64,000 bases of DNA from positions 1 through 64,000 of the forward strand of contig JAQGDQ010000007.1 in assembly GCA_030141605.1 (NCBI GenBank). Reading direction: 5' to 3'. Positions 3,201 to 49,968 of the stretch are shown here, piece by piece. The translations under genes and the position numbers were made by a program. The notes below the pieces were generated by a model. That model did no database searches. It saw nothing but the letters and a program-made list of their open reading frames with translations, and had not been told where the DNA came from. The stretch's first letter is position 1; the number at the start of each line of letters is the position of its first letter. This stretch comes from Tubiluchus corallicola. Taxonomy: Eukaryota > Priapulida > Priapulimorpha > Priapulimorphida > Tubiluchidae.

Positions 3201-6200
3201 AGTTTTGGCATAGAGACGTTTTTAAGCAAAAGCCAGGCCTCTTGGGAAGCTGGATTTATTTTAATATTTGAGAAAGACGTTAGAAAGTTTTAGCAATAGA
3301 ATTGTTGTGTGCAACTTTTGTAATTAGTGAAATCAGTTTAAAGTCGCGAATTGCTTCATTTTTTTACATATATGCTCATCTTGAACAAATAATGACGTCA
3401 TCCGGTTACCATACAATTCAGTTAAACACAAAGCTTTAGTCAACTAGAATATCGGAGTTTCTGAGTGAACTACAGAAGTATTGTAACTTGTGTTTTCAAT
3501 GTTATCCACCAGCTTATGTCATGTTTTTTCAAATGTGTCCGAAGCAAATCTCGCTAAGTGGGAGATATGAACTATTTAATTTTTTGCAATTTTAAACAAG
3601 GCATATTAAATACAATGAATGTTGTTCAAGAGTTGGCTTTCTTTTAACATTAGATAAACAAAACTAATAAAAAATGTAGCTTGAGTAGTGCTTCGGAATA
3701 GCAGTGTACCTGAAAACGTATTTTTATTGCTTATGTGTAATAATATAGATTCTATAATTATTATTGATAGTAGACACTTTTATACGCAAATGAGTCTAGA
3801 ATAAAATGTTTAAATGAATCGAACTGTAGCTTGCATACCTTTTGTTCTGCAGATGTCAGCACTGCTATCACAGAAAGTTCTACATACAGCAGTGAATCTG
3901 CATCTGCTGATTACACAAGCACTGATAACAGCTTAAGCTCTGAAGTTACTGAACATTCAACTATTTATAATACATCAAGCACCATGGAAACTACCAATGG
4001 TACTATATATAGCAAATTATAATTATTTTTTACTTTATTCTTCTATAAACTTATTTTTATTTTATTGCTACCATTAGTACCAGTACAGTTGTTCGCTGGT
4101 CAAACATACCTTATGTAATTTGTAGTGCTTAATTGAAAATATATACATGCGATGACAGAATAAAATTCTGTTTTTCTAACAATACAATTTCGAATTATCG
4201 TTAATGTCTAAGAAAATGAGACAATGTATGGTCGGCCGGTCGCAAAAAGGTGTTGCTAGTTTAGATTGAGTATTAAGACAATTTATATCTAATAGAAATA
4301 AATTGCAAAAGTCTACTTTGAAGGCTCCCTCTACTCATGTTATACAAAGGTCAATCGAGCATGTAATGCTTTACAGTTACTCTATGATAACCACACGTAC
4401 AACTGGGATCCACATTGTTGCCGGTTGCATGTGTGACTGCTAAGATCATTCAGTTGCAAAAGCCTAGCTCTTAATCTTGTATGATGTGTAACATTTTATA
4501 AAAGCCATATACATAGAATTATCAATAACAGTAAGAGTTTATAAATACTGTGTGTTTTTATTTTTTGGAAAAACTTTAGATAGATGAGCCTGCTCTGATG
4601 TTATCAGATAATTGTTCCATTCAGTCACTGATACAGGCATAAATCTGGACGAAACTTAAACTGCACCAATCTGTATGCTAACCTCTTGTAAGACCTAAAG
4701 TTTTTGAGCCATGCTGATATAAAAGGTTTCCAGCAGGAACTAATGCAGAAAAGTCAATGGAAAAATATCACTTTGAAACATTTTAGCATTAAACTCATAC
4801 TAATTTTGTCATTCAGCTCATAGTGATCGAAGCATTTTGATAATGGGCTTATAGTAATGTGTTACAAGAATTGTTGCACAACTTCAACTCTGAGTGTGCA
4901 TTGGGAAGTAAGGATTAACATCGAACATTCGAAATTGATTTGAACCTAAAATTATGGATTCCAATAATTCAGCACTTCAACTACATACATTCTTTATCAT
5001 TAAAATGTTTCAAAAAATTCTGCCATCAGCACAATCTACATGCAATTTCTGTTCACAATTTTTCCTAAGTAATTATTAGTGTTTTTACTGCACCTTACCG
5101 CATAAAATCAAATAATATGAATGATCTTTTGTGAGACAGATTTTTAATAGTAATTCAAAAATTGAATTTGAATTCGATTTGGATTCAAAAATGCTGAAAT
5201 TTAGTTTTATTGGAGTTCAAAAGTCACAAATTCGATTCAATTCGAATTTGCTTTCTGATAGAGAATGGAGAATGCTAACCCCTACAGGGAAGTGTCATTG
5301 GGTAGTGTACACTATTCAAGTGTGGCAGTTGAAGCCACACACTGTATCCCACTCTTCAAATTAAAACGACCTACTGATGAACTTTGTAATTAACTGTACT
5401 ACATCCTGAGCAGCCTACTTTTTTATAATCTAGATATCAGCACTGCAGCCACAGAAAATCCTGTATATAGCAGTGGATCTGTGTCTACTGATTACACAAG
5501 CACTGAAGTTACTGAACAGTCAACTGATTATAGTATGTTAAGCACCATGGAAACTAGCACAGGTATTATCAAAGTAAACATTGACTTAAATTTAAAGCCC
5601 GTAACTTTTTTCCTCAATGTGGATTACAGTAAATTTTCAATATGTAAGTAATAGTAACTGTTTTACGTGTACATCACAAAAACAACCAAAATGCTGCTCA
5701 AGAGGATTTTCGAACTAATTAAAACCTCAGCATATGTTTATTTTGCAGATGTCAGCACCATTGTCTCACAAACTTCTATGTACAGTGCTGAAATTGTGTC
5801 TACTGATTACACAAATACAGACAACTCCTTGACATCAGAAGCTAGTGAACAGTCAACTACTTACAGTATGTTAAACACCATGGAAACTAGCACTGGTACT
5901 GTCAATAACATATTATTATTAATCTCATATTATATTTCTTTGATATTGTGGAGTGACTGCTTCTTCTTTCTGAAATGAATTTATCGGTACCTATTATTTT
6001 GCAGACGTCAGCACCAGTGTCACAGAAAGTTCTACATACAGCAGTGAATCTGTATTTACTGATTATGCAAGCACTGGTAGCAGCTTAAGCTCTGGAGCTA
6101 CTGAACAGTCAACTGTTTACAGTATGTTAAGCACCATGGAAACTGAAACAGGTACAGTCAACAGCTAGTCTGTGTTATTTTTGTACATCATATTTTTCAG

Positions 6201-9200
6201 TTAAGGTAGTGTTGTAGCAAACAGCACATTATAAACAGCTAACTCATGTGTATATGGACATAGTACGGTTGAGTAAGGCTGTATAAAACTGAGAATATAA
6301 ACACCTACAATAACTACCAGACACAGTCATTTGACCATTGTTTATCTGTTAAGAAATTAGAATGAGTTTTAGTATAAACATACTATTTTAGTTTATGAAT
6401 AATCTTTGTAGTGATAGTGCAGTTGTTTTTAATTAGTGCAAACTGTTTAAATCTCCGATAATTTTCTTTTCTGCAACTCTAAGCATTTCAAAGAAACAAG
6501 AGTGGTAATTATAAGTTTTTTAATCGTATAATCTTTAATCTCTTTTCTGTTTCTATTCTATCTGCCTTATAATGGTGTGCCAATTGTTAAAAGAATACAA
6601 ATGGCCTCAAAGTTGTGTGTCTGCTTCTGCCACCTCTTAAATAGGTGCTCTTGAATGGGAAATTGTTCAGAATATTTAATTATGAATTGCAAAATTACTT
6701 ATTTCTCTTTATGCAAGGCTTATCAGAGTGTAAGACCTTTTGCATTTCTTCTATTACATTGAATTTCTTAAATGATGGGAAAGTGATGGCATTTGCACTT
6801 TCACTCGCAGGGGAAGTTTATATTTACAGTAACCAGCAATCATTTTACATAGTTTGCATCGCAATTACAATTACAGTAAAATAGTTTAAACAGTTAAAAT
6901 TTAAAATATCTAGGTTCTGGATTATTAAATATTAAAATTTATTAATAATAATATTAGAATTTAAAGTCCTGGATGAGTTCTCAGTCCTTCTCAGTTCCTT
7001 TTTTTTAGCAGATGTCAGCACCAGTGTCACAGAAAGTTCTACATATAGCAGTGATTACGCAAGCACTGATAGCAGCTTAAACTCTGACTCTGCTGAACAG
7101 TCAACTGATTACACTGTGTTAAGCACCATGGAATCTAGTACAGGTACAGTCAGTAGCTAAACTGTTAATTTTGCATACGAAACACTGAACACCCCCAGGA
7201 TGCTTAGCCAATACCCATGTAAATACACCTGTCCTCCATGGAAAAATAGCCAGCATGATGAGTAAGACCACTGACGGTGAGACGTAAACACTGTGGTTAC
7301 CCAGCCATTTATGAAGCAGGCTTAGTGTTGCTAAACTTCAGTTGGTAAGCACTGACAGTGACCGCTCAGCTATTGCTTCCTTCAACCTGAATATGTTGCA
7401 AGTCAATAATGTAATAATTGTGATTCAAACAGCCTGAAGGATGTGATGGTGACAATGACGATGACGATGATGTCTATATTCCTAATGATATTTAATGTAA
7501 AATATTGGCACTATTTCTTTTTCTTTTGTGGTGCTTTTTGAGCAAAATAACTTTAAGAGATATAATAGTATCTACAAAAAGGTCCTGCATGAGTTCTCAT
7601 CCCTCCCAGTAGAACACCTTACATGATTTACATTTTCTTCAGTGATCTTTGCTAACTGTTTATCACAAGTAACTTTTTATTTTCTTTTTTAGCGTTTTGA
7701 ACAGTCATGTAATAGTAGTCAACATACAGTATCTTAGTGATTAAATTCTACTGGCGGCTTGTATCCTGCTAATGAAATGTACAAGTGCACGTGGTCTTTA
7801 TTTGTGAAAAAATTGCATTAGGAGGAATACAGAGCTTTTTATTAGAATTGTTTGTCTGTTCCACATGCGCACGTTGTTTATGCACGCAAGTTGTTTTTGC
7901 GACTCTCCCTGCTGCAGAAGCAATTTCTCTTGCGTTTCTATATTAAAATGATGATGAATTATCTGGTAGATTAACAAAAATAAAAATGATACCGATAAGT
8001 TAAAGTTAATGTTTTTTTCTTTTTGGCATTTAAAGCCCTGGGAATATGGTGTCAGACCCTTTTACAGATATTTTGGTGTAAAAGTTATTATTTCTGAAAA
8101 TTAGTATAGATTTCTCTATTTACATAATTATCTGCACTGTACTGAACGAATGATTTATTGGTTGCACAATTTTTCGAAGTTTTAAATAACATGGGTAAGT
8201 GTATCCATTCTATGCTGCCTTGCTTATTGTAATCAAATGGTAAGTACTGTTGCTTTTTCCATATGGTACTAACTTTTTGTCTAAACTAGTGCCATGCCAC
8301 ATAAGTTAGGTACTAAACCAAGTTTGCAGGTAAGTATAAATGTTTTTGTCGTTCACATCAGGAAAACATCCTACCATTCTTTGCCTTTTGTCCATCAAAA
8401 AGTGTATGTGAAGGTGCACATACTTGGGTGTGTATAAGGTATGCCTGTGAATGTGTATGAAGTGCATGTGTGCCTGTTAATGTGTCGCCATGACATGCAT
8501 GTGTAAATGTAAAGTGAATGCACTGTGTTTGCAAACTGAGCATATGCTTCGCAATATGCATATTTTGGTTGCTTCTCTGTTTCAAAAAATACTTAGCCAG
8601 TAAACATTGACTTCAATTTAATGCTCATACCTTTTTTCTTCAAAGTGGATTTCAAGGGATTTTCAATATGTAAGTAAGAATAACTGTTTTACATGTACAT
8701 CACAAAAACAACCAAAATGTTGCTCAAGAAAATTTTCAAACTAATTAAAACCTCAGCATACGCTTATTTTGCAGATGTCAGCACCACTGTCACACAAACT
8801 TCTATGCGAAGTGCTGAAATTGTGTCTACTGATTACACAAATACTGACAAAACCTTCACCTCAGAAGCTAGTGAACAGTCAACTGATTACAGTATGTTAA
8901 ACACCGTTGAAACTAGCACTGGTACTGTCAATAAGATGGTTTTATTAATGTACATATTATATTTGTTTGATATTGTGGAGTGACGCCTCCTCATTTCTGA
9001 AATGAATTTAGCCGTATCTTGTGTACCTTTTATTTAGCAAATGTTAGCACCAGTGTCACAGAAAGTTCTACATACAGCAGTGAATCTGTATTTACTGATT
9101 ATACAAGCACTGATCACAGCTTAAGCTCCGAAGCTACTGAACAGTCAACTGTTTACAGTATGTTAAGCACCATGGAAACTGAAACAGGTACAGTCAACAG

Positions 9201-12200
9201 CTAGTCTGTGTTATTTTTGTACATCATATTTTTCAGTTATAGTAGTGTTGTAGCAAACAGCACATTTAAAAAAAATAACTCATTTTTTCTATGACATTGA
9301 ATTTCTTAAACAATGGGAAAGTGATGGCATTTGCACTTTCACTCACAGTGGAAGTTTATATTTACAGTAGCCAGCAAACATTTTACGTGGTTTGCATCGC
9401 AATTACGGCTTACAGTAAAATAGTTTAAGCAGTTAAATATTAAAATTTAATAATGATATTATTAAAATTTAAAGTCCTGGATGAGTTCTCACACCCTCTC
9501 AGTGCCTTTTATTTAGCAAATGTTAGCACCAGTGTCACAGAAAGTTCTACATACAGCAGTGAATCTGTATTTACTGATCTCAGCTTAAGCTTTGAAACTA
9601 CTGAACAATCAACTGTTCACAGTATGTTAAGCACCATGGAAACTGGCACAGGTACAGGGCAACAGCCAAACAGTTATTTTTGTTTATTTCTTTCAGTATG
9701 CAGCGGCGTATAAAGATTTCACAATGCCCTAGTCTGATAGATCTGTCCTGCCCATCTGTTTTGTGAATTTATAATTGATTATGTACTGAACAGGTTCAAC
9801 AATTACATGTAGTGTATTAGTAGTAATATTAACCTAGTTTCTTAATGATCTTTGTTCGTTATATGGCAAATATATAGTAACCGGTTTCAATAACTGCCTG
9901 TGGTATGTTATACAATGCCTGTTATACAGTGCCTAAAATGTAGTGCCCCCAAGTGTGGTGCCTTTGGTACCCTAGGCTATAGCCTAATTAGCCTATTGGT
10001 TAATATGCCCCTGTCAGTATGGTAGCAAGCACCACATTATAAAAACATAATTTGTATATATATAGATATGTGTGTATGTATATATATATATATCGAGATA
10101 ACCATAACTCAGAATAAAGTTTTGAAACCAGTTGTATGTGTGTGAGTACAAGTTTGGAATGAAATTTTTAAATGAATCGAACTGCATACATTTTATTATG
10201 CAGATATAAGCACTACTGTCACAGAAAGTTCTACGTACAGCAGTGAATTTGCATCTACTGCTTACACAAGCACTGATAACAGCTTAAGCTCTGAAGTTAC
10301 TGAACAGTCAATTGATCACAGCGTGTTAAGCACCATGGAAACTAGAACCGGTACAGCCAATAGTGAATTATTATTTCTATGTATTCTATATTATTTTGAT
10401 ATGTTTTTTCTTGGACATAGAGTATTGACTGCTTTTTATGTTTCTTACAGTTCTGCATAATGAGCAACACATAATAGGGCAATCAGTGGAAGCTTGGTAT
10501 TTCTAATTACAAGACAAACTGGCTTACAGTCATGATTATCAACTCTTACAGACACAATTAATACAAAATGTCACCTGTAATTTTGCTTGCCAATCACTTT
10601 TATGTTCCTTTTTTCTGACTCGAAACAATTTGTCGGACAAAGTGAAAAACCTAACACAGTGATTAATATTTTTAAGCTAGCTATATGTTGCATGGCTTCA
10701 TACTGAAAAACAGCAAGAATCAGGACAGAAAAAAGGCAATTACGAAATAGTTTTTTTGTATGGTATTTGGTATTGAACGTTTCACACGGAACTGCATGAC
10801 TGCACACCTCTAACCAACTAAGAAATTGCAGACTACTGTCATGCGACATACCATGCACTCGAGTGGCATGATTGAATCTAGTTTCCATGTGAAATTAAAT
10901 AGATAAATTTGATTTTGTATGCTAGTAAAATGGCAATATTTCTTCACAGTGTAATTGAGCAATCATGAAACTTCATCAAATCAAATTCATTAATAAAATG
11001 TTTCAGTAGTATATTCATTTCGCTACTTAGAATAGAAGTAAAGAAATTTGAGGGTAATAATAAACACAGTCAAACTTCTTTATACTGCCTACTTATGGAC
11101 TGCAGAAAAAAGCTGGCATTAAGGGAGTTTATTATTATAATAAGGTACGTTATTACATGCATGTCTGTGCAAATATAGACATTTTGTTTTATCAAAATAT
11201 GGTCTTTAAGTGAGGTTGACATTATAAAGGTGGGCAATATAGCGAGATTTGAATGTAGCTATTGACAATATTTTTAAATTTATATATTTTTATATTTGGT
11301 TATTTTATTTTGCTTTTCTATTACTTTCTGTCTTAATTTTATTTCAAATGCAAGTTGTGTATATTCATATTGGCAGATTCGACTTTTGCCATAGAATAGA
11401 TAATACTTTTTGCCAGTTTTCCGACAATCATTGAACATTATTTTAGTTTTTTAGCAGTTTACAACTGATGCAGCGAACTCTAATAAAATTTATTGAAATG
11501 AATTGAATTGCATCTTGTACACCTAATTCTGTTGTTTTTTCATGAGGCAGACCAGCCTAATGAAGCACATTAGTATTACAGTCAACAGAAGATGCTAACG
11601 TTAACACAGCGTTTTTTCTTTTGCAGCTACCACTGTTACAGAAAGTTCAACACACAGCAGTGAATCTACATCAATCTACAGCTAAACTAGTATTTTTGTT
11701 TATCCTTTTTTTCACTAGGGTGGATGGTAGCAGTCCAGTTATAACCATAAATACATATTTTGAAATATGTAAAATTGTATTTAGAGTGACTTTAATTTTG
11801 CAGATGTCAATATCAATGTCACAGAAAGTTCAACATACAACAGTGAATCTGCATCTACTGATTATACAAGCACTGATAGCAGCTTAAGCTCTGAAGCTGC
11901 TGAACAGTCAACTGATTACAGTATGTTAAGCACTGTGGAATCTAGTACAGGTACAGTCAGTAGCTAAACTGTTATTTTTGCATACAAAATACTGAACAAT
12001 CAATTTTAAATTTATAGGTTCTGGATTATTAAATATTAAAATTTATTAATAATAATATTAGAATTTAAAGTCCTGGATGAGTGCTCAGTCCTTCTCAGTA
12101 CCTTTTATTTAGCAGATGTCAGCACCAGTGTCACAGAAAGTTCTACATACAGCAGTGAATCTGTATCTACTGTTTACACAAGTACTGATAAGAACTTAAG

Positions 12201-18200: not shown

Positions 18201-19794
18201 CAGGATGCTTAGCCAATACCCATGTAAATACACCTATCCTCCATGGAAAAATAGCCAGCATGATGAGTAAAACCACTGACAGTGAGACTTGAGCACTGTG
18301 ACTACCCAGTCATTTATGAAGCAGGTTTAGTGTTGCTAAACTTCAGTTGGTAAGCACTGACAGTGACCGCTCAGCTATTGCTTCCTTCAACCTGAATATG
18401 TTGCAAGTCAATAATGTAATAATTGTGATTCAAACAGTCTGAAGGATGTGATGGTGACAATGACGATGACAATGATGTCTATATTCCTAATGATATTTAA
18501 TGAAAAATATTGGCACTATTTCTTTTTCTTTTGTGGTACTTTTTGAGCAAAATAACTTTAAGAGATATAATAGTATAGATGGTATTATTAATGTACATAT
18601 TATATTTGTTTGATATTGTGGAGTGAAGCCTCCTCATTTCAGAAATGAATTTAGCCGTATCTTGTGTACCTTTTATTTAGCAAATGTCAGCACCAGTGTC
18701 ACAGAAAGTTCTACATACAGCAGTGAATCTGTATCTACTGATTACACAAGTACTGATAACAACTTAAGCTTTGAAGCTACTGAAAATTTGCCTGTTTACA
18801 GTTCTTTAAGCACCACGGAAACCAGCACAGGTACTGTCTACAACTAAAGTGGTATTTTTGTTTATCCTGTTTTCACAGGATAGTAAATAGAAATGTGTCT
18901 AGGGCAGTTGGAATTTTGCAGATTCAGTTGTCACAGAAAGTTCTACTTACAGCGTGAATCTGTGTCTACTGACTACACATGCACTAATAACAGTTTATGC
19001 TCTGAATCTACAGAAGAATCAACTGATTACAGTACACCAAGTATGATAAAAACTAGCACGGTTACTGTCACTGTTGTTCATACCATTTCCTACCTCTGTT
19101 AGGAGATCAGGGAAGGGGTGTAATTATTTAAAATACATAGTTATAATAAATAGCGAATTAGCTTTTATCGATTTTGGTGCTGCACTTTGTGCAGAAGTTC
19201 TTTTGACGTAATTTACCATGCGTCACAATACAAAACAAAGTACATTCTGAAAAGACCTGTGCATTTCTCATACATTTTCTGCTTGCAGATTTAAGCAGCA
19301 TTGTTTTGGAAAATTCTTCTTACAACAGTGAGACTACGTCGACTGATTACACAAATACCGATGTTAGTTTTACATTTAAAACTCCCGAAGATGTATCTGG
19401 TGCTACTGTACTAAGTACCATAGAAACTAATGCAGGTATTATTGATGGTAAAAGTTTATTTTACCTCTTTTTTTAACTCTTAGAGTTTGGAAAATGTGTA
19501 AGTATGCAATCTGTATAGTTATTGCTTGGAAGTCTGTAACCTACTTAATAGGTATTCATTGATAATCTGGAAAGAATGTGAGCCGAAAAAGTTGCATGCA
19601 GGTTTGTATTTTACCACAGAACTTTATTATACAACTCTGTAGAGTGATAACCCAGACATGAAAAAAAATTCAGTCTGTGATGCCTGGTTTTAGTAATAAA
19701 ATGGTAAGTACATTTGGTTTTTCCATACAAAACAGTACTTTATATTAGAAAAATCCGGCCTATTAATCTCTGCCTTTTCTGTGTGGAAAATGTG

Positions 19795-19825
<31 letters not shown>

Positions 19826-20217
19826 GTGCATGCGTGACACATTTGTAAATCAATGCACTTGTGAAACAGAGCATTTGTTCCATGCATCAGCAAAATTATG
19901 GAACAAGCTTTTTTTTTATTTAAACAGGCTATCAAAACATTGCATCATAACAAAGTGTTGCAGTCTTTTACTCGTAGTTTTAAATTATGAAGCACCTGAA
20001 GCATTTTGTCAGGTTCTCATTTTTATTGACAATTAGTAATCCTTAATGGTTCATAATTGCTCTTGCATTTCTAGAAGTTTTTGTTCGTTGTTTTCTTTTA
20101 TTTATGCTAAGGGATGTTAAAGCAGAATGCATATGTCATTTGCAATTTTAGCAAATTGCTCAACTAATACAGACACACCATATATAATATAATGTTATGT
20201 AACGTAATGTAATGTAA

Positions 20218-20250
<33 letters not shown>

Positions 20251-23200
20251 CTTTATTTAGAGTTGTCTTTAAATTCAATCGACAACAAAAGCCTGCCATG
20301 AGGTTTTTGTCACCTAATCAACTACAATTACAACTACGTAACAAATTATTATTATTACCCCACTTTTACCCTAAATACTATCATGAATACTGCACAACCT
20401 TGTCCTCTAACCTGCCTTTCTTTGTTTCTTTCCGACCTTACAGGCAAGATTTGTTCCTATGTGGGTTATTTGCAGGTATGCAATGGCTTATTTACCGAGA
20501 GCTGCCTCTTTCACATGCATTTAAGAGTTTTGCTGCAATTTATTTGTATCTACTGCATGTACGTATCTGTGTATAACAGGCACATTTTAAAGAGCTGTTA
20601 TGTGTCTTTAAGGTTTTCAAAATGCTTAAGGGTTTGTTCAGTACACTTCCTAGATTCTGAACTTTGGTTTTTTGCATTTTGTATTCTGTAGTGAAATAAA
20701 ATGAAGTATTAAGAACCTTAGTCTGCTTTCTATCTCTCTAAACATTGCTTGTTACTATTATGGACCTATATATTCCAATAACTCAAAAATTATATGTTGC
20801 TTCATAGCTCCAAACTATGTGTGTTGATAACTCCAAAAGTAAATGGCTTTTGTAGCTCTAAAAGCCCTTTGCTAACCTAGAATATTCAGTTTGTAGTTCA
20901 GACTTTCAAGGTTAAAGTGCACAGTCACCATACTTGATCAGCTGATTACAATATACATTTTATAGTCCGGATTTTAAGTCAGTTGTTTCTAAATTAGAAG
21001 TTCAATAATACTACAAAGACTTGTTATCTGTATGGTCTGGATTTAGATTAGCTAAGCCTGAATAACTATTGTTGCTCAGTTTTTTGGAACTTTTTGCTTT
21101 GCTAACAGTGAGTATTTGTATATTTTGCTATTGGTTTACAGAATTTTTGCGTGTTGTCTAACAGTCTTTTTTCAGAATGTCAGAGCAAACAACTGTTCAA
21201 GCCCATAGCCAGGCCAAGAAAATCATGAAATCCCCTGGATATGCAAAACGTGTTGAATCTGATACCTCGGCAGACGAGGAGACCCAGATAGCTGACTTTG
21301 AAGTTAACATTGCTAAGAACTGTAGTGATGCACCTCAGCCAGTTAAGCTAGCAAACCAGCCGGAGCATGATGCAGTTTCTTCCAATGCAACTGATTCAGT
21401 TGGTGATATTGGCTTTCTGACAATCATTTAGCATTATTTTAGCTTTTTAGCAATTTACAACTGATACAGCGAACTCTAATAAAATTTATTGAAATGAATT
21501 GAACTGCATCTTGTGCACCTACAGCTTGTACAATTTTAGCACATTTCCACATAAAATTCTGTTGTTTTTTCAAGAGGCAGACCAGCCTAATGAAGCACAT
21601 TAGTATTACAGTCAACAGAAGATGCTAACGTTGACACAGAACAAAGTCTTGAAATGTACAGAATTATATCTAAAGCGTTTTTTCTTTTGCAGCTACCACT
21701 GTTACAGAAAGTTCAACACACAGCAGTGAATCTACCTCAATCTACAGCTAAACTAGTATTTTTGTTTATCCTTTTTTTCACTAGGGTGGATGGTAGCAGT
21801 CCAGTCCAGTCCAGCAACCATAAATACATATTTTGAAATATGTAAAATTGTATTTAGAGTGACTTTAATTTTGCAGATGTCAATATCAATGTCACAGAAA
21901 ATTCAACATACAGCAGTGAATCTGCATCTACTGATTACACAAGCACTGATAGCAGCTTAAGCTCTGAAGCTACTGAACAGTCAACTGATTACAGTATGTT
22001 AAGCACCATGGAATCTAGTACAGGTACAGTCAGTAGCTAAACTGTTATTTTTGCGTACGAAATACTGAACAATCAATTTTAAATTTATAGGTTCTGGATT
22101 ATTAAATATTAAAATTTATTAATAATAATATTAGAATTTAAAGTCCTGGATGAGTGCTCAGTCCTTCTCAGTACCTTTTATTTAGCAGATGTCAGCACCA
22201 GTGTCACAGAAAGTTCTACATACAGCAGTGAATCTGTATCTACTGATTACACAAGTACTGATAACAACTTAAGCTTTGAAGCTACTGAAAATTCGCCTGT
22301 TTACAGTTCTTTAAGCACCACGGAAACCAGCACAGGTACTGTCTACAACTAAAGTGGTATTTTTGTTTATCCTGTTTTCACAGGATAGTAAATAGAAATG
22401 TGTCTAGGGCAGTTGGAATTTTGCAGATTCAGTTGTCACAGAAAGTTCTACTTACAGCGTGAATCTGTGTCTACTGACTACACATGCACTAGATTTAGAT
22501 TTTTTAGATTTTAATAGATTTATTTCGCATTAAACATATACATATACATCACATTACATTACATGTGCATCAGGTTTTGTTAATACAAAAATATGATAAA
22601 ATTCATGTATACTGCGCTAGAGACCTAGGAAGCTAGCTTATGGTAGGCCACTAGAATTACGAAAAAAATTGCAATATATACAACATTACAACATTACAAT
22701 ATACAACATTACAATATACAACATTACAATATACAACATTACATATACAACATAGATACAACATTACAATATATACAAATATAAATATAAATACGGGTGG
22801 GAAGTATTAAAAATTTTATTTTACTATACAGTTTTTGAAAAAGAAAACAACAAATCATGATTGAGTCATCAGTTATATGTTTCGAGTACGTTTAATTTAT
22901 ATATTTTTTTAAATATGGAAAGCGAGTTGACATTTTTAATAGCTGGAGCAATTGAATTCCATATGTAAGGGCCATTGTATTTAATAGAAAATTTTCTAAC
23001 ATTAGTGTTACACTGTATGTAGTGATAGTGCAGCCTATAACGTGTGCCGTAATTATGTATCTCAGCATTCAAACAAAAATAATCAGTCAAATAAGGGAGG
23101 CAATAATTTATGAGAGAATTTGTACATGAAAATGGCAGTTTGGAACTTATTAATGTCGTAAATGTTTAGAAAGTTTAGTCTTTTAAATATTGGCTGTGTA

Positions 23201-26200
23201 TGGTCCTGATAACCGGCAAATGTTATAGCTCGCACTATTTTCTTCTGAATCAGATGAATTTTTTTCAATCGACTGGAGTATGTGCTTCCCCAAATAATGT
23301 TCGAATTATTTAGATATGGTAAAAAAAAGAGAATTATATAATAATACAAGTACTGAGCTAGGCAATTTGTGTCTAACTCTATATATAATGCCTATGATTT
23401 TTGAGATTTTGCTTTTGATAAATCTAAGATGTTCTTGCCAAGTTAAGTGTTCATCAATGATGATGCCTAAGAACTTAGTATATTTTACTTGATTTATTGG
23501 AACTTCATCGATTTTTACTATAAAATTACTAGGGATTCTTTTATTTTTATTTGTGAATACAATAAATTTGGTTTTTTCAATATTCAGTGATAACTTATTA
23601 GCTTTAAACCAGGTGGAGAGATGTACAAGTTCTTGGTTTACAGTATTTATCATGTAATAACGGTTTAATAACTAATAACAGTTTATGCTCTAATAACAGT
23701 TTATGCTCTGAATCTACAGAAGAATCAACTGATTACAGTACACCAAGTATGATAAAAACTAGCACGGTTACTGTCACTGTTGTTCATACCATTTCCTACC
23801 TCTGTTAGGAGATCAGGGAAGGGATGTAATTATTTAAAATACATAGTTATAATAAATAGCGAAGTAGCTTTTATCGATTTTGGTGCTGCACTTTGTGCAG
23901 AAGTTCTTTTGACGTAATTTACCATGCGTCACAATACAAAACAAAGTACATTCTGAAAAGACCTGTGCATTTCTCATACATTTTCTGCTTGCAGATTTAA
24001 GCAGCATTGTTTTGGAAAATTCTTCTTACAACAGTGAGACTACGTCGACTGATTACACAAATACCGATGTTAGTTTTACATTTAAAACTCCCGAAGATGT
24101 ATCTGGTGCTATTGTACTAAGTACCATAGAAACTAATGCAGGTATTATTGATGGTAAAAGTTTATTTTACCTCTTTTTTTAACTCTTAGAGTTTGGAAAA
24201 TGTGTAAGTATGCAATCTGTATAGTTATTGCTTGGAAGTCTGTAACCTACTTAATAGGTATTCATTGATAATCTGGAAAGAATGTGAGCCGAAAAAGTTG
24301 CATGCAGGTTTGTATTTTACCACAGAACTTTATTATACAACTCTGTAGAGTGATAACCCAGACATAAAAAAAAATTCAGTCTGTGATGCCTGGTTTTAGT
24401 AATAAAATGGTAAGTACATTTGGTTTTTCCATACAAAACAGTACTTTATATTAGAAAAATCCTGCCTATTAATCTCTGCCTTTTCTGTGTGGAAAATGTG
24501 TGTGTGTGTGTGTGTGCAAGTGTGGGTGCATGCGTGACACATTTGTAAATCAATGCACTTGTGAAACAGAGCATTTGTTCCATGCATCAGCAAAATTATG
24601 GAACAAGCTTTTTTTTTATTTAAACAGGCTATCAAAACATTGCATCATAACAAAGTGTTGCAGTCTTTTACTCGTAGTTTTAAATTATGAAGCACCTGAA
24701 GCATTTTGTCAGGTTCTCATTTTTATTGACAATTAGTAATCCTTAATGGTTCATAATTGCTCTTGCATTTCTAGAAGTTTTTGTTCGTTGTTTTCTTTTA
24801 TTTATGCTAAGGGATGTTAAAGCAGAATGCATATGTCATTTGCAATTTTAGCAAATTGCTCAACTAATACAGACACACCATATATAATATAATGTTATGT
24901 AACGTAATGTAATGTAAAATAATAATAATAATAATAATAATAACCTTTATTTAGAGTTGTCTTTAAATTCAATCGACAACAAAAGCCTGCCATGAGGTTT
25001 TTGTCACCTAATCAACTACAATTACAACTACGTAACAAATTATTATTATTACCCCACTTTTACCCTAAATACTATCATGAATACTGCACAACCTTGTCCT
25101 CTAACCTGCCTTTCTTTGTTTCTTTCCGACCTTACAGGCAAGATTTGTTCCTATGTGGGTTATTTGCAGGTATGCAATGGCTTATTTACCGAGAGCTGCC
25201 TCTTTCACATGCATTTAAGAGTTTTGCTGCAATTTATTTGTATCTACTGCATGTACGTATCTGTGTATAACAGACACATTTTAAAGAGCTGTTATGTGTC
25301 TTTAAGGTTTTCAAAATGCTTAAGGGTTTGTTCAGTACACTTCCTAGATTTTGAACTTTGGTTTTTTGCATTTTGTATTCTGTAGTGAAATAAAATGAAG
25401 TATTAAGAACCTTAGTCTGCTTTCTATCTCTCTAAACATTGCTTGTTACTATTATGGGCCTATATATTCCAATAACTCAAAAATTATATGTTGCTTCATA
25501 GCTCCAAACTATGTGTGTTGATAACTCCAAAAGTAAATGGCTTTTGTAGCTCTAAAAGCCCTTTGCTAACCTAGAATATTCAGTTTGTAGTTCAGACTTT
25601 CAAGGTTAAAGTGTACAGTCACCATACTCGATCAGCTGATTACAATATACATTTTATAGTCCGGATTTTAAGTCAGTTGTTTCTAAATTAGAAGTTCAAT
25701 AATGCTACAAAGACTTGTTATCTGTATGGTCTGGATTTAGATTAGCTAAGCCTGAATAACTATTGTTGCTCAGTTTTTTGGAACTTTTTGCTTTGCTAAC
25801 AGTGAGTATTTGTATATTTTGCTATTGGTTTACAGAATTTTTGCGTGTTGTCTAACAGTCTTTTTTCAGAATGTCAGAGCAAACAACTGTTCAAGCCCAT
25901 AGCCAGGCCAAGAAAATCATGAAATCCCCTGGATATGCAAAACGTGTTGAATCTGATACCTCGGCAGACGAGGAGACCCAGATAGCTGACTTTGAAGTTA
26001 ACATTGCTAAGAACTGTAGTGATGCACCTCAGCCAGTTAAGCTAGCAAACCAGCCGGAGCATGATGCAGTTTCTTCCAATGCAACTGATTCAGTTGGTGA
26101 TATTGGCTTTCTGACAATCATTTAACATTATTTTAGCTTTTTAGCAATTTACAACTGATACAGCGAACTCTAATAAAATTTATTGAAATGAATTGAACTG

Positions 26201-27635
26201 CATCTTGTGCACCTACAGCTTGTACAATTTTAGCACATTTCCACATAAAATTCTGTTGTTTTTTCAGAGGCAGACCAGCCTAATGAAGCACATTAGTATT
26301 ACAGTCAACAGAAGATGCTAACGTTGACACAGAACAAAGTCTTGAAATGTACAGAATTATATCTAAAGCGTTTTTTCTTTTGCAGCTACCACTGTTACAG
26401 AAAGTTCAACACACAGCAGTGAATCTACCTCAATCTACAGCTAAACTAGTATTTTTGTTTATCCTTTTTTTCACTAGGGTGGATGGTAACAGTCCAGTCC
26501 AGTCCAGCAACCATAAATACATATTTTGAAATATGTAAAATTGTATTTAGAGTGACTTTAATTTTGCAGATGTCAATATCAATGTCACAGAAAATTCAAC
26601 ATACAGCAGTGAATCTGCATCTACTGATTACACAAGCACTGATAGCAGCTTAAGCTCTGAAGCTACTGAACAGTCAACTGATTACAGTATGTTAAGCACC
26701 ATGGAATCTAGTACAGGTACAGTCAGTAGCTAAACTGTTATTTTTGCGTACGAAATACTGAACAATCAATTTTAAATTTATAGGTTCTGGATTATTAAAT
26801 ATTAAAATTTATTAATAATAATATTAGAATTTAAAGTCCTGGATGAGTGCTCAGTCCTTCTCAGTACCTTTTATTTAGCAGATGTCAGCACCAGTGTCAC
26901 AGAAAGTTCTACATACAGCAGTGAATCTGTATCTACTGATTACACAAGTACTGATAACAACTTAAGCTTTGAAGCTACTGAAAATTCGCCTGTTTACAGT
27001 TCTTTAAGCACCACGGAAACCAGCACAGGTACTGTCTACAACTAAAGTGGTATTTTTGTTTATCCTGTTTTCACAGGATAGTAAATAGAAATGTGTCTAG
27101 GGCAGTTGGAATTTTGCAGATTCAGTTGTCACAGAAAGTTCTACTTACAGTGCGAATCTGTGTCTACTGACTACACATGCACTAATAACAGTTTATGCTC
27201 TGAATCTACAGAAGAATCAACTGATTACAGTACACCAAGTATGATAAAAACTAGCACGGTTACTGTCACTGTTGTTCATACCATTTCCTACCTCTGTTAG
27301 GAGATCAGGGAAGGGGTGTAATTATTTAAAATACATAGTTATAATAAATAGTGAAGTAGCTTTTATCGATTTTGGTGCTGCACACTTTGTGCAGAAGTTC
27401 TTTTGACGTAATTTGCCATGCATGACAATACAAAACAAAGTACATTCTGAAAAGACCTGTGCATTTCTCATACATTTTCTGCTTGCAGATTTAAGCAGCA
27501 TTGTTTTGGAAAATTCTTCTTACAACAGTGAGACTACGTCGACTGATTACACAAATACCGATGTTAGTTTTACATTTAAAACTCCCGAAGATGTAACTGG
27601 TGCTATTGTACTAAGTACCATAGAAACTAATGCAG
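68..27635 (+). CDS. Mosaic lectin / Ser-Thr repeat / ShK / EGF gene (partial, multi-exon span)
   Basis: Gene-level entry. Exons recognised in order: three lectin-domain exons, 11 intact Ser/Thr-repeat exons, two ShK exons, two calcium-binding EGF exons, then 9 more intact Ser/Thr-repeat exons. From the end of the third lectin exon onward all joins are phase 1 (first base G of a codon before the intron), so the exon chain stays open. The 5' end, with any signal peptide, lies left of the window. No transmembrane segment, GPI signal or terminal exon was identified. The domain mix is that of secreted or cell-surface recognition or mucin-like proteins; this is inference. I do not recognise a named orthologue. 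Which exons are joined in real transcripts cannot be seen. Confidence 0.72.
276..811. other. Intron between lectin exons 1 and 2
   Basis: AT-rich, no coding or RNA signal seen. Confidence 0.5.
812..971 (+). CDS. C-type lectin-like domain exon 2
   Basis: 160 nt. The acceptor ttttttaag at 811 leaves one base to complete the previous codon (TA+T = Tyr), and the donor is GAG^gtatgt. It encodes LNWIGYSIW, the WIGL-type core motif of C-type lectin domains. I preferred the acceptor at 811 over AG at 843-844 because the latter would require the weaker donor gtagta in exon 1. The intron after it opens directly into a roughly 40-bp minisatellite. Confidence 0.75.
985..1340. repeat. Degenerate minisatellite, about 35-44 bp period
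   Basis: Repeated unit with ctctttcttg, a variable stretch, then ctccagcaaaggtgc..tttgtag. About nine copies start immediately inside the intron after the lectin exon at 812-971. A stray unit lies near 2005-2040. Confidence 0.75.
2540..2654 (+). CDS. C-type lectin-like domain exon 3
   Basis: 115 nt, phase 0 start, phase 1 end. It encodes DWEAYCAVW, then FCTATHPFICEA, matching the C-terminal lectin signature (Cys, aromatic, ...FICE). The three lectin exons supply the paired Cys pattern and the WIG core. I did not see a clear EPN/QPD plus WND calcium/sugar-binding motif, so carbohydrate binding is unproven. The phase 1 end feeds the Ser/Thr-repeat array. Confidence 0.75.
2655..3852. other. Intron between lectin domain and repeat array
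   Basis: About 1.2 kb, no repeat-exon homology, no ORF worth keeping. Nothing further seen. Confidence 0.5.
3853..3999 (+). CDS. Ser/Thr-repeat exon 1
   Basis: 147 nt = 49 codons, phase 1-1. Acceptor ctgcag, donor AATG^gtacta. Contains TAITESSTYSSESAS and DYTSTDNSLSSE, dense in Ser/Thr with periodic Tyr and Glu, as in mucin-like O-glycosylated stalks. Read past its donor, the frame stops after seven codons. Confidence 0.78.
4000..5433. other. Intron; AT-rich, with a self-complementary AATTCGAA-type tract
   Basis: No exon found. Around 5145-5255 short motifs such as aattcgaa, gaatttgaattc and aaattcgattc recur on both strands, a self-complementary low-complexity tract. Confidence 0.45.
5434..5562 (+). 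CDS. Ser/Thr-repeat exon 2 (short, 43 codons)
   Basis: 129 nt, phase 1-1; acceptor aatctag, donor ACAG^gtatta. It lacks 18 nt (the DNSLSS segment) relative to the 147-nt form, an in-frame deletion. Begins DISTAATENPVYSSGSVSTD. Confidence 0.72.
5749..5895 (+). CDS. Ser/Thr-repeat exon 3
   Basis: 147 nt, phase 1-1; acceptor ttttgcag, donor ACTG^gtactg. A diverged subtype with SQTSMYSAEIVSTDYTNTD. Its exon and upstream intron are duplicated at 8660-8990. Confidence 0.78.
6005..6151 (+). CDS. Ser/Thr-repeat exon 4
   Basis: 147 nt, phase 1-1; acceptor attttgcag, donor ACAG^gtacag. Contains SSESVFTDYASTGSSLSSG. Exon and downstream intron resemble those at 9038-9250. Unspliced, the frame ends at TAG five codons past the donor. 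Confidence 0.78.
7012..7143 (+). CDS. Ser/Thr-repeat exon 5 (44 codons)
   Basis: 132 nt, phase 1-1; acceptor ttagcag, donor ACAG^gtacag. In-frame loss of five codons gives STYSSDYASTDSS. Exon plus about 430 nt of downstream intron recurs at 18017-18575. Confidence 0.78.
7144..8774. other. Intron with a copy shared with 18149-18575
   Basis: The first 430 nt duplicate the intron after 18148. A GATG-rich stretch lies near 7445-7475 and a TG/CATG-rich stretch at about 8400-8520. No gene seen. Confidence 0.5.
8775..8921 (+). CDS. Ser/Thr-repeat exon 6
   Basis: 147 nt, phase 1-1; acceptor ttttgcag, donor ACTG^gtactg. Paralogue of the exon at 5749: TQTSMRSAEIVSTDYTNTD. The upstream intron is also conserved between the two copies. 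Confidence 0.78.
9038..9187 (+). CDS. Ser/Thr-repeat exon 7 (shifted acceptor)
   Basis: 150 nt, phase 1-1. The usual tagCAG acceptor reads tagCAA, so splicing is predicted at the upstream TAG. This adds one codon and changes the start from D-V-S-T to A-N-V-S-T, which contains an N-V-S sequon. Donor ACAG^gtacag. Confidence 0.7.
9517..9651 (+). CDS. Ser/Thr-repeat exon 8 (shifted acceptor, short)
   Basis: 135 nt, phase 1-1. Same CAG to CAA change and predicted upstream acceptor as the exon at 9038, giving A-N-V-S-T. An in-frame deletion joins SVFTD to LSLSFETTEQS. Donor ACAG^gtacag. Confidence 0.68.
10204..10350 (+). CDS. Ser/Thr-repeat exon 9
   Basis: 147 nt, phase 1-1; acceptor ttatgcag, donor ACCG^gtacag. 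Begins DISTTVTESSTYSSEFASTA. Preceded by a TA-rich simple repeat at about 10060-10095. Confidence 0.76.
10351..11626. other. Intron before unit 0
   Basis: No exon found. The segment from about 11415 (gacaatcatt...) is the native sequence to which the gag fragment is joined in the duplicated units. Confidence 0.5.
11627..11685 (+). pseudogene. Truncated repeat exon with in-frame stop (unit 0)
   Basis: A strong acceptor (ttttcttttgcag) is followed by a repeat start (TTVTESSTHSSESTS) that ends IYS-stop. A deletion removed the second half and the donor, fusing directly to sequence that normally lies downstream of a donor. It may be a dead exon, or a usable terminal exon giving a short C-terminus. 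Same structure at 21693 and 26386. Confidence 0.6.
11804..11950 (+). CDS. Ser/Thr-repeat exon 10
   Basis: 147 nt, phase 1-1; acceptor attttgcag, donor ACAG^gtacag. Begins DVNINVTESSTYNSESASTD; N-V-T is a potential N-glycosylation site. This is the ancestral-looking member of the type copied at 21877 and 26570. Confidence 0.78.
12116..12262 (+). CDS. Ser/Thr-repeat exon 11
   Basis: 147 nt, phase 1-1; acceptor ttagcag, donor ACAG^gtactg. Contains STDKNLSFEATENSPVYSS. Copies of this type lie at 18681, 22189 and 26882. Last intact repeat exon before the ShK exons. Confidence 0.78.
12354..12493 (+). pseudogene. Frameshifted repeat exon (unit 0)
   Basis: Repeat-exon homology with acceptor tttgcag, but a 1-nt deletion in the AGCAGTGAA segment (AGCGTGAA) breaks the frame, and the donor context is changed from ACAGgtactg to ACGgttactg. 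The downstream frame still looks repeat-like (ESVSTDYTCTNNSL), so the damage is recent relative to the duplication history. Confidence 0.68.
12601..13473 (+). repeat. LTR-like module, unit 0 (solo copy)
   Basis: About 870 bp matching the modules at 20055, 24755 and 28251, from attgctcttgcatttct to catactcgatca (TG...CA ends possible). It includes an (AAT)n-type tract and a pyrimidine-rich centre. Leader and gag do not follow it here. Read as a solo LTR or truncated copy of the BEL/Pao-like element; the LTR identity is inferred from its position ahead of gag in the other copies. Confidence 0.55.
13540..13745 (+). pseudogene. Relic of an EGF exon locus with the exon body deleted
   Basis: Intron sequence matching that before the EGF exon at 17524 (aataaacaatg, cctaataaacagtgaattca) leads to cagATTTAAATTAATG, the first bases of that exon with a stop. 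It then jumps directly to sequence matching about 17870-17945, downstream of the EGF exon. A third EGF exon once stood here and was deleted. Confidence 0.55.
14023..14136 (+). CDS. ShK domain exon 1
   Basis: 114 nt, phase 1-1; acceptor attgcag, donor ACTG^gtatac. Encodes GCKDYHYNCEYWSDQGEC then NNPGWMAANCRKSCRYC: the six-Cys ShK pattern (C-x-D, C-x-x-W, G-E-C, N-P-x-W-M, C-x-x-S-C-x-x-C) plus one extra Cys at the end. ShK domains occur in ion-channel toxins but also in many ordinary secreted enzymes and matrix proteins. Here the mosaic context argues for a structural or binding module rather than a free toxin. Confidence 0.85.
14440..14557. repeat. About 33-bp tandem repeat, four copies
   Basis: Units of the form gtccacaaagttattacaac followed by agttaataa variants, in the intron between the two ShK exons. 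Confidence 0.7.
14768..14935. repeat. T/G-rich low-complexity tract before ShK exon 2
   Basis: Nearly pure T and G on the plus strand (ttttgtttttg, tgtgggtg). It acts as an exaggerated polypyrimidine/G-T tract upstream of the acceptor at 14961 and creates spurious Phe/Cys-rich ORFs. Confidence 0.8.
14962..15114 (+). CDS. ShK domain exon 2
   Basis: 153 nt, phase 1-1; acceptor tttttacag, donor ACAG^gtaagc. Six Cys in ShK order with CAIWASQGECVNNPNF and RCKLSCGVC. Compared with the first ShK exon it has a longer first loop rich in Gly/Thr/Asp and lacks the C-terminal extra Cys. The intron before it is an extreme T/G-rich tract. Confidence 0.85.
15115..15807. other. Intron between ShK exon 2 and EGF exon 1
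   Basis: No coding signal seen. Contains a short imperfect inverted repeat (gctaccactgtagtc... / ...accgcagtggtag, about 15664-15700). Confidence 0.45.
15808..15987 (+). CDS. Calcium-binding EGF-like exon 1
   Basis: 180 nt, phase 1-1; acceptor ttcattag, donor TCGG^gtaaga. Encodes DVNECGAGDPTHNCDP, then CINTNGSFTCQC. D-x-N-E-C and C-x-N-x(4)-F-x-C-x-C match the calcium-binding and Asn-hydroxylation signatures of cbEGF modules. Six Cys are present, ending TTCSG. Confidence 0.87.
15988..17523 (+). other. Intron between EGF exons, with an unassigned open stretch
   Basis: Positions 16764-17126 are open for 120 codons (contains FRKQDFLDSYLCSTEKDLP and KLTYYISREDRRN), longer than expected for AT-rich DNA, but no ATG start, splice signals or recognisable family were found. 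It may be a fragment of a mobile element. A dispersed repeat at about 17265-17320 (tttttcaaaattggc) recurs near 38350. Confidence 0.35.
17524..17673 (+). CDS. Calcium-binding EGF-like exon 2
   Basis: 150 nt, phase 1-1; acceptor cattgcag, donor TCAG^gtaaaa. Encodes DLNECDVNNPTHNCDPDL, then CLNVEGSFSCQC. Same module class as the exon at 15808, with the shared NPTHNCDP loop indicating duplication of one module. Tandem cbEGF pairs usually form rigid calcium-stiffened rods. Confidence 0.87.
18017..18148 (+). CDS. Ser/Thr-repeat exon 12 (44 codons)
   Basis: 132 nt, phase 1-1; acceptor ttagcag, donor ACAG^gtacag. Nearly identical to the exon at 7012, including the five-codon deletion, and followed by the same intron sequence to about 18575. 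It is therefore a dispersed copy placed after the EGF exons. Confidence 0.78.
18681..18830 (+). CDS. Ser/Thr-repeat exon 13 (shifted acceptor)
   Basis: 150 nt, phase 1-1. Acceptor tttag^CAAATGTC with the CAG to CAA change, giving A-N-V-S-T. The body is otherwise of the 12116 type (NNLSFEATEN). Its upstream 105 nt matches the intron before the exon at 9038, so the copy is a recombinant. Confidence 0.72.
18922..19060 (+). pseudogene. Frameshifted repeat exon (unit X)
   Basis: Copy of the exon at 12354 with the same 1-nt deletion and the same altered donor. The lesion therefore predates the duplication of units. Confidence 0.68.
19289..19435 (+). CDS. Ser/Thr-repeat exon 14 (divergent subtype, copy X)
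   Basis: 147 nt, phase 1-1; acceptor gcttgcag, donor GCAG^gtatta. Encodes DLSSIVLENSSYNSETTSTD then TFKTPEDVSGATVLSTIE. Most divergent repeat subtype, kept in frame in all three units X, Y and Z. Confidence 0.78.
19790..19818. repeat. (TG)n microsatellite, unit X
   Basis: Longest of the three unit copies; unit Y (about 24498-24516) is shorter and unit Z (about 27990-28003) is interrupted by C. Confidence 0.8.
20055..20940 (+). repeat. LTR-like module, unit X
   Basis: Copy of the 870-885 bp module, followed by a leader and gag start. Differs from the others mainly in AAT-repeat length and scattered substitutions. Confidence 0.58.
21177..21431 (+). pseudogene. BEL/Pao-like gag N-terminal fragment, unit X
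   Basis: Opens MSEQTTVQAHSQAKKIMKSP and runs 84 codons; the final codons cross the duplication junction near 21415. The leader upstream ends in a splice-like tttttcag. The rest of gag-pol is absent, replaced by host intron. Confidence 0.6.
21693..21751 (+). pseudogene. Truncated repeat exon with in-frame stop (unit Y)
   Basis: Copy of the exon at 11627: good acceptor, repeat start, stop TAA at 21749-21751, no donor. Preserved structure in the duplicate. Confidence 0.6.
21877..22023 (+). CDS. Ser/Thr-repeat exon 15 (unit Y)
   Basis: 147 nt, phase 1-1; acceptor attttgcag, donor ACAG^gtacag. Copy of the 11804 type with DVNINVTENSTYSSESASTD; N-V-T and N-S-T are both potential N-glycosylation sites. 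Nearly identical to the exon at 26570. Confidence 0.78.
22189..22335 (+). CDS. Ser/Thr-repeat exon 16 (unit Y)
   Basis: 147 nt, phase 1-1; acceptor ttagcag (unchanged CAG), donor ACAG^gtactg. Copy of the 12116 type; nearly identical to 26882. Contains STDNNLSFEATENSPVYSS. Confidence 0.78.
22427..23764 (+). pseudogene. Frameshifted repeat exon split by a LINE insertion (unit Y)
   Basis: Copy of the frameshifted exon. The first part is 22427 to about 22491 and the remainder about 23672-23764. The interval is filled by a 5'-truncated LINE in minus orientation. An 18-bp segment (taataacagtttatgctc) is tandemly doubled at the right border. Copies in units X and Z lack the insertion. Confidence 0.7.
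22491..23672 (-). mobile_element. 5'-truncated CR1-like LINE fragment
   Basis: Minus-strand pieces include LSTWFKANKLSLNIEKTKF and VKYTKFLGIIIDEHLTWQEH, matching the C-terminal part of the LINE RT at 55708-57702. Frames are broken near 23306-23349 and 23083. The 3' end (low coordinate) has a short AATCT-type repeat. Tandem acaacattacaatat units lie at about 22675-22775. It interrupts a dead repeat exon in unit Y only. Confidence 0.75.
23995..24141 (+). CDS. Ser/Thr-repeat exon 17 (divergent subtype, unit Y)
   Basis: 147 nt, phase 1-1; acceptor gcttgcag, donor GCAG^gtatta. Copy of the 19289 exon, differing at one visible residue (VSGAIVLS instead of VSGATVLS). Flanking introns are also near-identical. 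Confidence 0.78.
24755..25634 (+). repeat. LTR-like module, unit Y
   Basis: Copy of the same module, nearly identical to unit X. Confidence 0.58.
25871..26125 (+). pseudogene. BEL/Pao-like gag N-terminal fragment, unit Y
   Basis: Same 84-codon fragment and same junction to host intron as at 21177. The identical breakpoint shows both came from one duplication structure. Confidence 0.6.
26386..26444 (+). pseudogene. Truncated repeat exon with in-frame stop (unit Z)
   Basis: Third copy of the stop-ended short exon; stop TAA at 26442-26444. Acceptor and stop are unchanged relative to 21693. Confidence 0.6.
26570..26716 (+). CDS. Ser/Thr-repeat exon 18 (unit Z)
   Basis: 147 nt, phase 1-1; acceptor attttgcag, donor ACAG^gtacag. 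Copy of the exon at 21877 with the same NVTENSTYSS start. Unspliced read-through gives a stop five codons past the donor. Confidence 0.78.
26882..27028 (+). CDS. Ser/Thr-repeat exon 19 (unit Z)
   Basis: 147 nt, phase 1-1; acceptor ttagcag, donor ACAG^gtactg. Copy of the exon at 22189; unspliced read-through ends TVYN-stop. Confidence 0.78.
27120..27258 (+). pseudogene. Frameshifted repeat exon (unit Z)
   Basis: Fourth copy of the frameshifted exon. Here the deletion region reads CAGTGCGAATCTG, a further change at the same point, and the frame is still broken. Donor context ACGgtt as in the other copies. Confidence 0.66.
27489..27635 (+). CDS. Ser/Thr-repeat exon 20 (divergent subtype, unit Z; last one found)
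   Basis: 147 nt, phase 1-1; acceptor gcttgcag, donor GCAG^gtatta. Copy of 19289/23995 with EDVTGAIVLS. It is the last repeat exon seen. About 600 nt downstream the BEL-like element begins, and no later host exon was found, so the gene may be truncated or its terminal exon is unrecognised. Confidence 0.76.
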
Positions 27636-28250
27636 GTATTATTGATGGTAAAAGTTTATTTTACCTCTTTTTTTAACTCTTAGAGTTTGGAAAACGTGTA
27701 AGTATGCAATCTGTATAGTTATTGCTTGGAAGTCTGTAACCTACTTAATAGGTATTCATTGATAATCTGGAAAGAATGTGAGCCGAAAAAGTTGCATGCA
27801 GGTTTGTATTTTACCACAGAACTTTATTATACAACTCTGTAGAGTGATAACCCAGACATGAAAAAAAATTCAGTCTGTGATGCCTGGTTTTAGTAATAAA
27901 ATGGTAAGTACATTTGGTTTTTCCATGCAAAACAGTACTTTATATTAGAAAAATCCTGCCTATTAATCTCTGCCTTTTCTGTGTGGAAAATGTGTGCGTG
28001 TGCAAGCGTGGGTGCGTGCGTGACACATATGTAAATCAATGCACTTGTGAAACAGAGCATTTGTTCCATGCATCAGCAAAATTATGGAACAAGCTTTTTT
28101 TTATTTAAACAGGCTATCAAAACATTGCATCATAACAAAGTGTTGCAGTCTTTTACTCGTAGTTTTAAATTATGAAGCACCTGAAGCATTTTGTCAGGTT
28201 CTCATTTTTATTGACAATTAGTAATCCTTAATGGTTCATAATTGCTCTTG

Positions 28251-28401: not shown

Positions 28402-28444
<43 letters not shown>

Positions 28445-49868: not shown

Positions 49869-49968
<100 letters not shown>

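Follow-up and report, generated by a model that had tools for sequence, protein, structure and literature searches.

The window, meaning the whole stretch of 64,000 nucleotides of Tubiluchus corallicola DNA analyzed here, is the start of contig C1831 in an assembly of 343.5 Mb and 2344 contigs. Its plus strand carries a three-exon lectin-like domain, two ShK exons, two EGF exons, and 27 copies derived from a Ser/Thr-rich repeat exon, 20 of them intact and seven broken. Repeat exons were found by a profile scan and their borders were fixed from splice signals. The modules, by position in the window, are listed below; intact repeat exons are numbered.

68..2654, plus: lectin-like domain CTLD3 (exons 68-272, 812-971, 2540-2654), phase 1 in, phase 1 out
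3853..3999, plus: intact repeat exon 1, subtype a, 147 nt
5434..5562, plus: intact repeat exon 2, subtype a, 129 nt, minus 6 codons
5749..5895, plus: intact repeat exon 3, subtype b, 147 nt
6005..6151, plus: intact repeat exon 4, subtype c, 147 nt
7012..7143, plus: intact repeat exon 5, subtype e, 132 nt, minus 5 codons
8775..8921, plus: intact repeat exon 6, subtype b, 147 nt
9038..9187, plus: intact repeat exon 7, subtype c, 150 nt, upstream AG, plus 1 codon
9517..9651, plus: intact repeat exon 8, subtype c, 135 nt, upstream AG, minus 5 codons
10204..10350, plus: intact repeat exon 9, subtype a, 147 nt
11627..11685, plus: broken copy, truncated, no donor, in-frame TAA
11804..11950, plus: intact repeat exon 10, subtype f, 147 nt
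12116..12262, plus: intact repeat exon 11, subtype d, 147 nt
12354..12498 (end approximate), plus: broken copy, frameshifted, GTTACT where intact copies have GTAC or GTAT donors
14023..14136, plus: ShK exon A, 114 nt, phase 1-1, Pfam ShK 2.1e-11
14962..15114, plus: ShK exon B, 153 nt, phase 1-1, Pfam ShK 1.8e-6
15808..15987, plus: EGF exon 1, 180 nt, phase 1-1, Pfam EGF_CA 1e-9
17524..17673, plus: EGF exon 2, 150 nt, phase 1-1, Pfam EGF_CA 1.7e-9
18017..18148, plus: intact repeat exon 12, subtype e, 132 nt, its acceptor tract holding a cassette breakpoint (see below)
18681..18830, plus: intact repeat exon 13, subtype d, 150 nt
18922..19066 (end approximate), plus: broken copy, frameshifted
19289..19435, plus: intact repeat exon 14, divergent subtype T, 147 nt, or 159 nt by a second in-frame donor 12 nt on
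21693..21751, plus: broken copy, truncated, TAA
21877..22023, plus: intact repeat exon 15, subtype f, 147 nt
22189..22335, plus: intact repeat exon 16, subtype d, 147 nt
22427..23770 (end approximate), plus: broken copy, frameshifted and split by a LINE-like insert
23995..24141, plus: intact repeat exon 17, subtype T, 147 nt
26386..26444, plus: broken copy, truncated, TAA
26570..26716, plus: intact repeat exon 18, subtype f, 147 nt
26882..27028, plus: intact repeat exon 19, subtype d, 147 nt
27120..27264 (end approximate), plus: broken copy, frameshifted
27489..27635, plus: intact repeat exon 20, subtype T, 147 nt

All 20 intact repeat exons, which span 3853-27635, have an AG acceptor, a GT donor, phase 1 at both ends, and a length divisible by three (fourteen of 147 nt, two of 150, two of 132, and one each of 135 and 129). 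The original prediction of at least 20 intact phase 1-1 repeat exons is thereby borne out by the splice-border calls, and the lengths it gave for repeats (129–150 nt) and for ShK/EGF exons (114, 153, 180, and 150 nt) are right for intact exons. Its further statement that every exon is 1-1 and that all are interchangeable goes too far, since seven of the 27 repeat copies are broken. Four of these are frameshifted (12354, 18922, 22427, and 27120); the other three (11627, 21693, and 26386) lack the second half and the donor and run on into a TAA. Because the repeat exons are copies of each other, their common phase does not amount to 20 independent observations. More independent evidence for the frame is small. 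Three shortened repeat exons lost whole codons (6, 5, and 5), as had been predicted, one ShK copy has a 3-base gap, and gaps in compared pairs were multiples of three in 2/2 cases within exons vs 12/45 within introns. The frameshifted repeat type counts against frame preservation.

A second contig, C2343, overlaps the window (C2343 position = window position + 93796). The two were identical in the compared stretches of 4204, 797, and 6000 bases, except for 13 differences within window bases 1-16. This mismatch resembles a contig that starts at a branch of the assembly graph, and a second haplotype could lie on the alternative branch. Upstream of the window and on the same strand, C2343 carries two ShK-ShK-EGF groups, five near-equal EGF exons spaced 1.8–2.0 kb apart, a divergent EGF exon, and two further three-exon lectin-like domains (CTLD1 and CTLD2). 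With these 12 ShK/EGF exons and two lectin-like domains on C2343, the gene extends past the window, and the known modules together cover 54 kb. All four ShK/EGF exons in the window score above the Pfam cut-off (two ShK, two EGF_CA), and exon borders coincide with domain borders, with one ShK or EGF_CA domain per exon. Phase 1-1 with splice sites was found for 4/4 of these exons in the window and for 11/12 upstream, the twelfth, a divergent EGF at C2343:85554, being a 1-1 candidate only.

Further upstream on C2343 lies GTPBP3, whose top match, among the best 120 of 7946, is from Priapulus caudatus (457 bits vs 347 for the next) with clear differences. As far as one gene can tell, the DNA would come from a priapulid other than P. 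caudatus. A tandem repeat with steps of ~0.76 kb, 75–84% alike, occupies C2343:53079-55066 between GTPBP3 and the ShK exons. Downstream of the array, the window holds the following.

29341..32900 (approximate), plus: remains of a Pao/BEL-type retroelement, with Pfam Peptidase_A17 at 30964-31356
34556..34704, plus: candidate last exon, phase 1 in, with a transmembrane helix, a short tail, and a stop
42733..43095 and 53636..53857, minus: transglutaminase exons (Pfam Transglut_N, Transglut_C)
55711..57738, minus: LINE with an open 676-aa reverse transcriptase frame (Pfam RVT_1)

Two other open pieces of the Pao/BEL-type remains had no Pfam match. The minus-strand order of the transglutaminase exons suggests two tandem transglutaminase genes; their region also contains a pure (TTA)32 microsatellite (49871-49967) and a 32-base minisatellite (60153-60540).

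Next, we considered the lectin-like domains. CTLD1 matches Pfam Lectin_C (5.3e-8, 34 bits vs a cut-off of 22.6), CTLD2 has no Pfam match, and for CTLD3 no Pfam family, Lectin_C included, was found at E<=1. The "lectin domain" that had been predicted in the window therefore goes beyond what Pfam returns, as Lectin_C fits only the upstream CTLD1. CTLD3 also gave no significant BLASTP match to CTLD1, and a PDB sequence search with it returned two weak, unrelated matches. In structure, all three consist of three exons and have phase 1 at either end (the borders of CTLD1 and CTLD2 were set by eye). The first intron of CTLD3 is in phase 2 as in CTLD1, while its second is in phase 0 vs phase 1 in CTLD1 (by eye). 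We call CTLD3 lectin-like on the strength of its neighbor, its first-intron phase, and our reading by eye.

We then examined how the array was assembled. Self-comparison, together with a reading of the junctions of the cassette, revealed nested duplication events and the following larger units.

13474..18011, plus: cassette of ShK-ShK-EGF-EGF with introns
18666..22170, plus: tandem unit U1, 3.5 kb
22171..26863, plus: tandem unit U2, with a LINE-like insert at ~22492-23684 absent from U1 and U3
26864..29550, plus: tandem unit U3, incomplete (2.7 of 3.5 kb), with the Pao-type remains next to it

U1, U2, and the partial U3 are 99.2, 97.6, and 97.5% alike in pairwise comparison. The insert in U2 is 69% alike to the LINE at 55.7–57.7 kb over 229 bases, and an open piece within it had no Pfam match. 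Another partial copy of the 3.5-kb unit, lacking the T exon, lies at 11418-13473; its two parts join at 12600/12601, where no common bases are visible. The stretch 29341-29550 recurs in U1 and U2, and its assignment to the Pao/BEL-type element is a guess. Four copies of a 300-base stretch (12764-13063, 20231-20530, 24925-25224, and 28425-28724) are 100% identical although their flanks differ, which may reflect gene conversion or an unrecognized element.

The cassette matches parts of C2343:71640-75727 in three blocks that cover 3.7 of its 4.5 kb and are 98.8, 99.3, and 98.1% alike. It carries ~0.5 kb of EGF intron that is absent there but present in other upstream EGF2 copies, so the present upstream block is not its exact source and both come from a common form. 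At the right end of the cassette, an EGF intron is joined to the poly-T of the acceptor of the repeat exon at 18017 (gttcatttt, then agcag, then ATGTCAGC), with a T-run on both sides; at the left end, at most one base is common with the partner. One breakpoint thus lies within an intron and the other in the acceptor tract of an intron, as for a transfer via intron recombination, and we infer that the ShK/EGF block was copied toward the array. Read from the DNA in this way, the array is a product of recent class 1-1 exon shuffling. The phases, the 97.5–99.2% units, and the cassette back the earlier description of a modular extracellular protein of phase 1-1 exons with repeat subtypes, and they support fast growth and recent gain of copies.

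Such recent copies raise the question of whether copy number differs between alleles or individuals, that is, a germline length polymorphism like that of mucin VNTRs, with no splicing diversity. The likeness of the three units, the insert found in U2 only, and the upstream EGF2 units, which are mutually 95.8–98.5% alike, all speak for it. On the other hand, no second haplotype was seen, C2343 being equal to the window in the compared stretches bar the first 16 bases, and we put this reading at somewhat less than an even chance. It is, by comparison, unlikely that the 18.6–29.5 kb array is in large part a 3' end in decay or a duplication made by the assembly, and that the working gene ends earlier. 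Five of the seven broken copies do fall within this part, which has a LINE-like insert inside it and Pao-type remains behind it, and a certain last exon was not found; yet from 18017 onward each of the nine intact exons is open with splice sites, three differing units cannot be merely two haplotypes, and the same units appear on two contigs.

To assess coding signal, we placed the changes among the 20 intact repeat exons on their tree by parsimony. The 180 changes are spread 49/66/65 over the three codon positions, by contrast to the ShK/EGF exons, whose variable positions (5/8/19) show the usual third-position excess of constrained domains. From 180 changes, 4.7–7.2 stops would be expected in the intact repeat exons and none is present (P ~0.003 at kappa 2), a test favored by the choice of open copies as intact, although no copy was excluded for a point stop alone. 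Neutral simulation along the exon tree (500 runs per setting) was done for all 20 exons and for the 17 non-T exons, each at kappa 2 and 3. Ser+Thr content reached the observed level in 2 and 0 of 500 runs (all 20 exons; kappa 2 and 3) and in 5 and 0 (non-T exons); stop-free runs numbered 0 and 2, and 6 and 9, respectively, again out of 500 each. Since Ser+Thr content exceeds the neutral simulation and yet the changes are spread almost evenly over codon positions, composition is kept and sequence is not; selection on the repeat exons seems to maintain frame and composition while leaving the sequence free. The dN/dS comparison across repeat exons that had been proposed as a check gave 0.63 when pooled over 15 of the 20, and recent pairs held too few changes for it. 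Exon divergence is close to intron divergence in the youngest pairs; among older pairs, it is the lower of the two in several (0.075/0.114, 0.044/0.117, and 0.059/0.240, exon/intron) and the higher in one (0.067/0.049).

The repeats contain 48.8% Ser+Thr, a level that qualifies as mucin-like, together with 14.8% Asp+Glu and 0.8% proline. PTS domains of mucins have proline above about 5%. The repeats fall below this, which is unusual for a mucin. Seventeen N-glycosylation motifs are present in a reading of the array without EGF exon 1.

Searches for the ends and relatives of the gene were less productive. No start exon was found when C2343:1-67 kb was scanned for open frames. A search for a last exon over 27.6–36.5 kb gave two matches, one of them within the Pao-type remains and the other the candidate at 34556-34704; matches as hydrophobic as the latter arise ~0.2–0.3 times per 8.9 kb on both strands. 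A protein search with a composite of CTLD3, three repeats, two ShK, and two EGF modules returned no relative of the repeats or of CTLD3, but four matches that carry ShK or EGF domains and cover 17–23% of the query, and a search with the three joined lectin-like domains returned none at 1e-5; both reach only proteins that have exact words in common with the query and are 0.55–1.75 times as long. Among the papers listed for Priapulus C-type lectins or mucins, and for lectin + ShK + EGF + mucin-like proteins, none treats this gene in its title or the abstract shown. Elsewhere in the assembly, C1326:134000-146000 holds a partial, apparently decayed copy of the repeat exons and two ShK-like exons. 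We considered this contig as the site of a second array and rejected it, as 116001-166000 has these elements and no such array.

Taken together, it is likely that the window holds the central and 3' portions of a single large animal gene that encodes a mosaic protein, extracellular and probably bound to the membrane. The DNA itself shows the exon structure, the phases, the duplications with their breakpoints, the open frames, and the composition. The protein would carry ShK and EGF modules, followed by three C-type-lectin-like domains and a long, acidic, Ser/Thr-rich stalk in which each repeat has its own exon and which a second ShK-ShK-EGF-EGF block interrupts. Since the intact module exons share phase 1-1, the frame survives duplications and deletions that break within introns, and in this manner the stalk would have grown and come to hold the ShK/EGF block. 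All modules presumably share one transcript, and the product is expected at the cell surface. The stalk is probably glycosylated and would act as a spacer that keeps the lectin-like head at a distance from the cell; repeats that are open, rich in Ser/Thr, and free in sequence are as expected for such a spacer. With seven of 27 repeat copies broken, either splicing bypasses them or parts of the array no longer function, and we think that most intact exons are used as a fixed set and the broken ones skipped. Several points count against this reading: neither a start exon nor a proven last exon was found, some repeat copies are broken, proline is low, CTLD2 and CTLD3 have no Pfam match, and CTLD3 differs from CTLD1 in second-intron phase and has no significant BLASTP match to it.

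The original prediction had further proposed that the array could yield a large family of stalk lengths and glycosylation patterns, possibly differing between alleles and individuals. In a combinatorial system of this kind, varying subsets of repeat and ShK/EGF exons would be included within each individual. All 20 intact repeat exons can be interchanged in frame, but any class 1-1 exon has this property, and it is no proof of use. The splice sites offer some support, in that all 20 repeat donors lack A at +4 and G at +5 (GTACAG in nine, GTACTG in six, GTATTA in four, and GTACTA in one), which predicts weak inclusion; ShK/EGF donors have A at +4 in 13/15 and G at +5 in 6/15. Among the repeat acceptors, five read TAGCAG and three have the upstream AG only, so one-codon variants are possible. 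However, repeat donors copied from one ancestor count as one observation, 9/15 ShK/EGF donors likewise lack G at +5, in the three T exons a better donor lies in frame 12 nt farther on, and broken copies, if included, would truncate the protein. We therefore regard combinatorial isoforms as improbable. A still bolder proposal is an individually variable priapulid recognition receptor, in which lectin-like heads sit on variable stalks. Fast turnover of exon copies in the germline, together with exon skipping allowed by weak repeat donors, would determine the length, the glycan load, and the internal ShK/EGF block of these stalks, such that each animal would have its own set of stalk forms; this we consider a long shot.

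How does this locus compare with known systems? In Patthy's account (PMC8001218), shuffled extracellular modules of animals are class 1-1 and 3n long, and hence suited to skipping, duplication, and moving in frame. To call the locus an undescribed system, as had been done, is thus too much, because in-frame mobile phase 1-1 exons are the rule for such modules, according to that source (PMC8001218). The likeness to class 1-1 mosaic proteins, as described there, extends to modules that are exons or exon groups with phase 1 ends, to an extracellular product, and to frame-safe shuffling and skipping (PMC8001218). Unlike in typical cases, the transfer here is recent (98–99%) with readable breakpoints, and what has been duplicated is for the most part a Ser/Thr repeat that looks disordered. 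Dscam/FREP-type diversified receptors are extracellular and have arrays of duplicated exons that can be exchanged for one another. The present array is similar in this respect, but may differ in that its intact 1-1 exons can be joined in series in frame and, instead of undergoing exclusive or somatic choice, could all be included together. With mammalian VNTR mucins the locus has in common Ser/Thr-rich repeats that gain and lose copies; in those mucins, according to a 2026 study, a large exon harbors the tandem repeats (PMC13345508), whereas here each repeat has its own exon and proline is at 0.8%. What we describe is a mucin-like stalk that grows by whole exons rather than by a repeat tract in one exon, probably in a phylum that has seen little molecular work.

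In mode of working, the nearest analogue found here is the Xenopus FIM mucins, which likewise have shuffled cysteine-rich modules, and of which FIM-C.1 is polymorphic via alternative splicing (PMC7177656). Those are vertebrate proteins with trefoil modules, while the present locus has ShK, EGF, and lectin-like modules and is known from genomic DNA. Class 1-1 shuffling has usually been inferred from old genes; here the cassette, its near-identical sister block, and the junctions, one of them within a splice acceptor tract, can be read directly, which opens the process to study at one locus. The locus is a clear, recent case of a well-known mode of growth of animal surface proteins.
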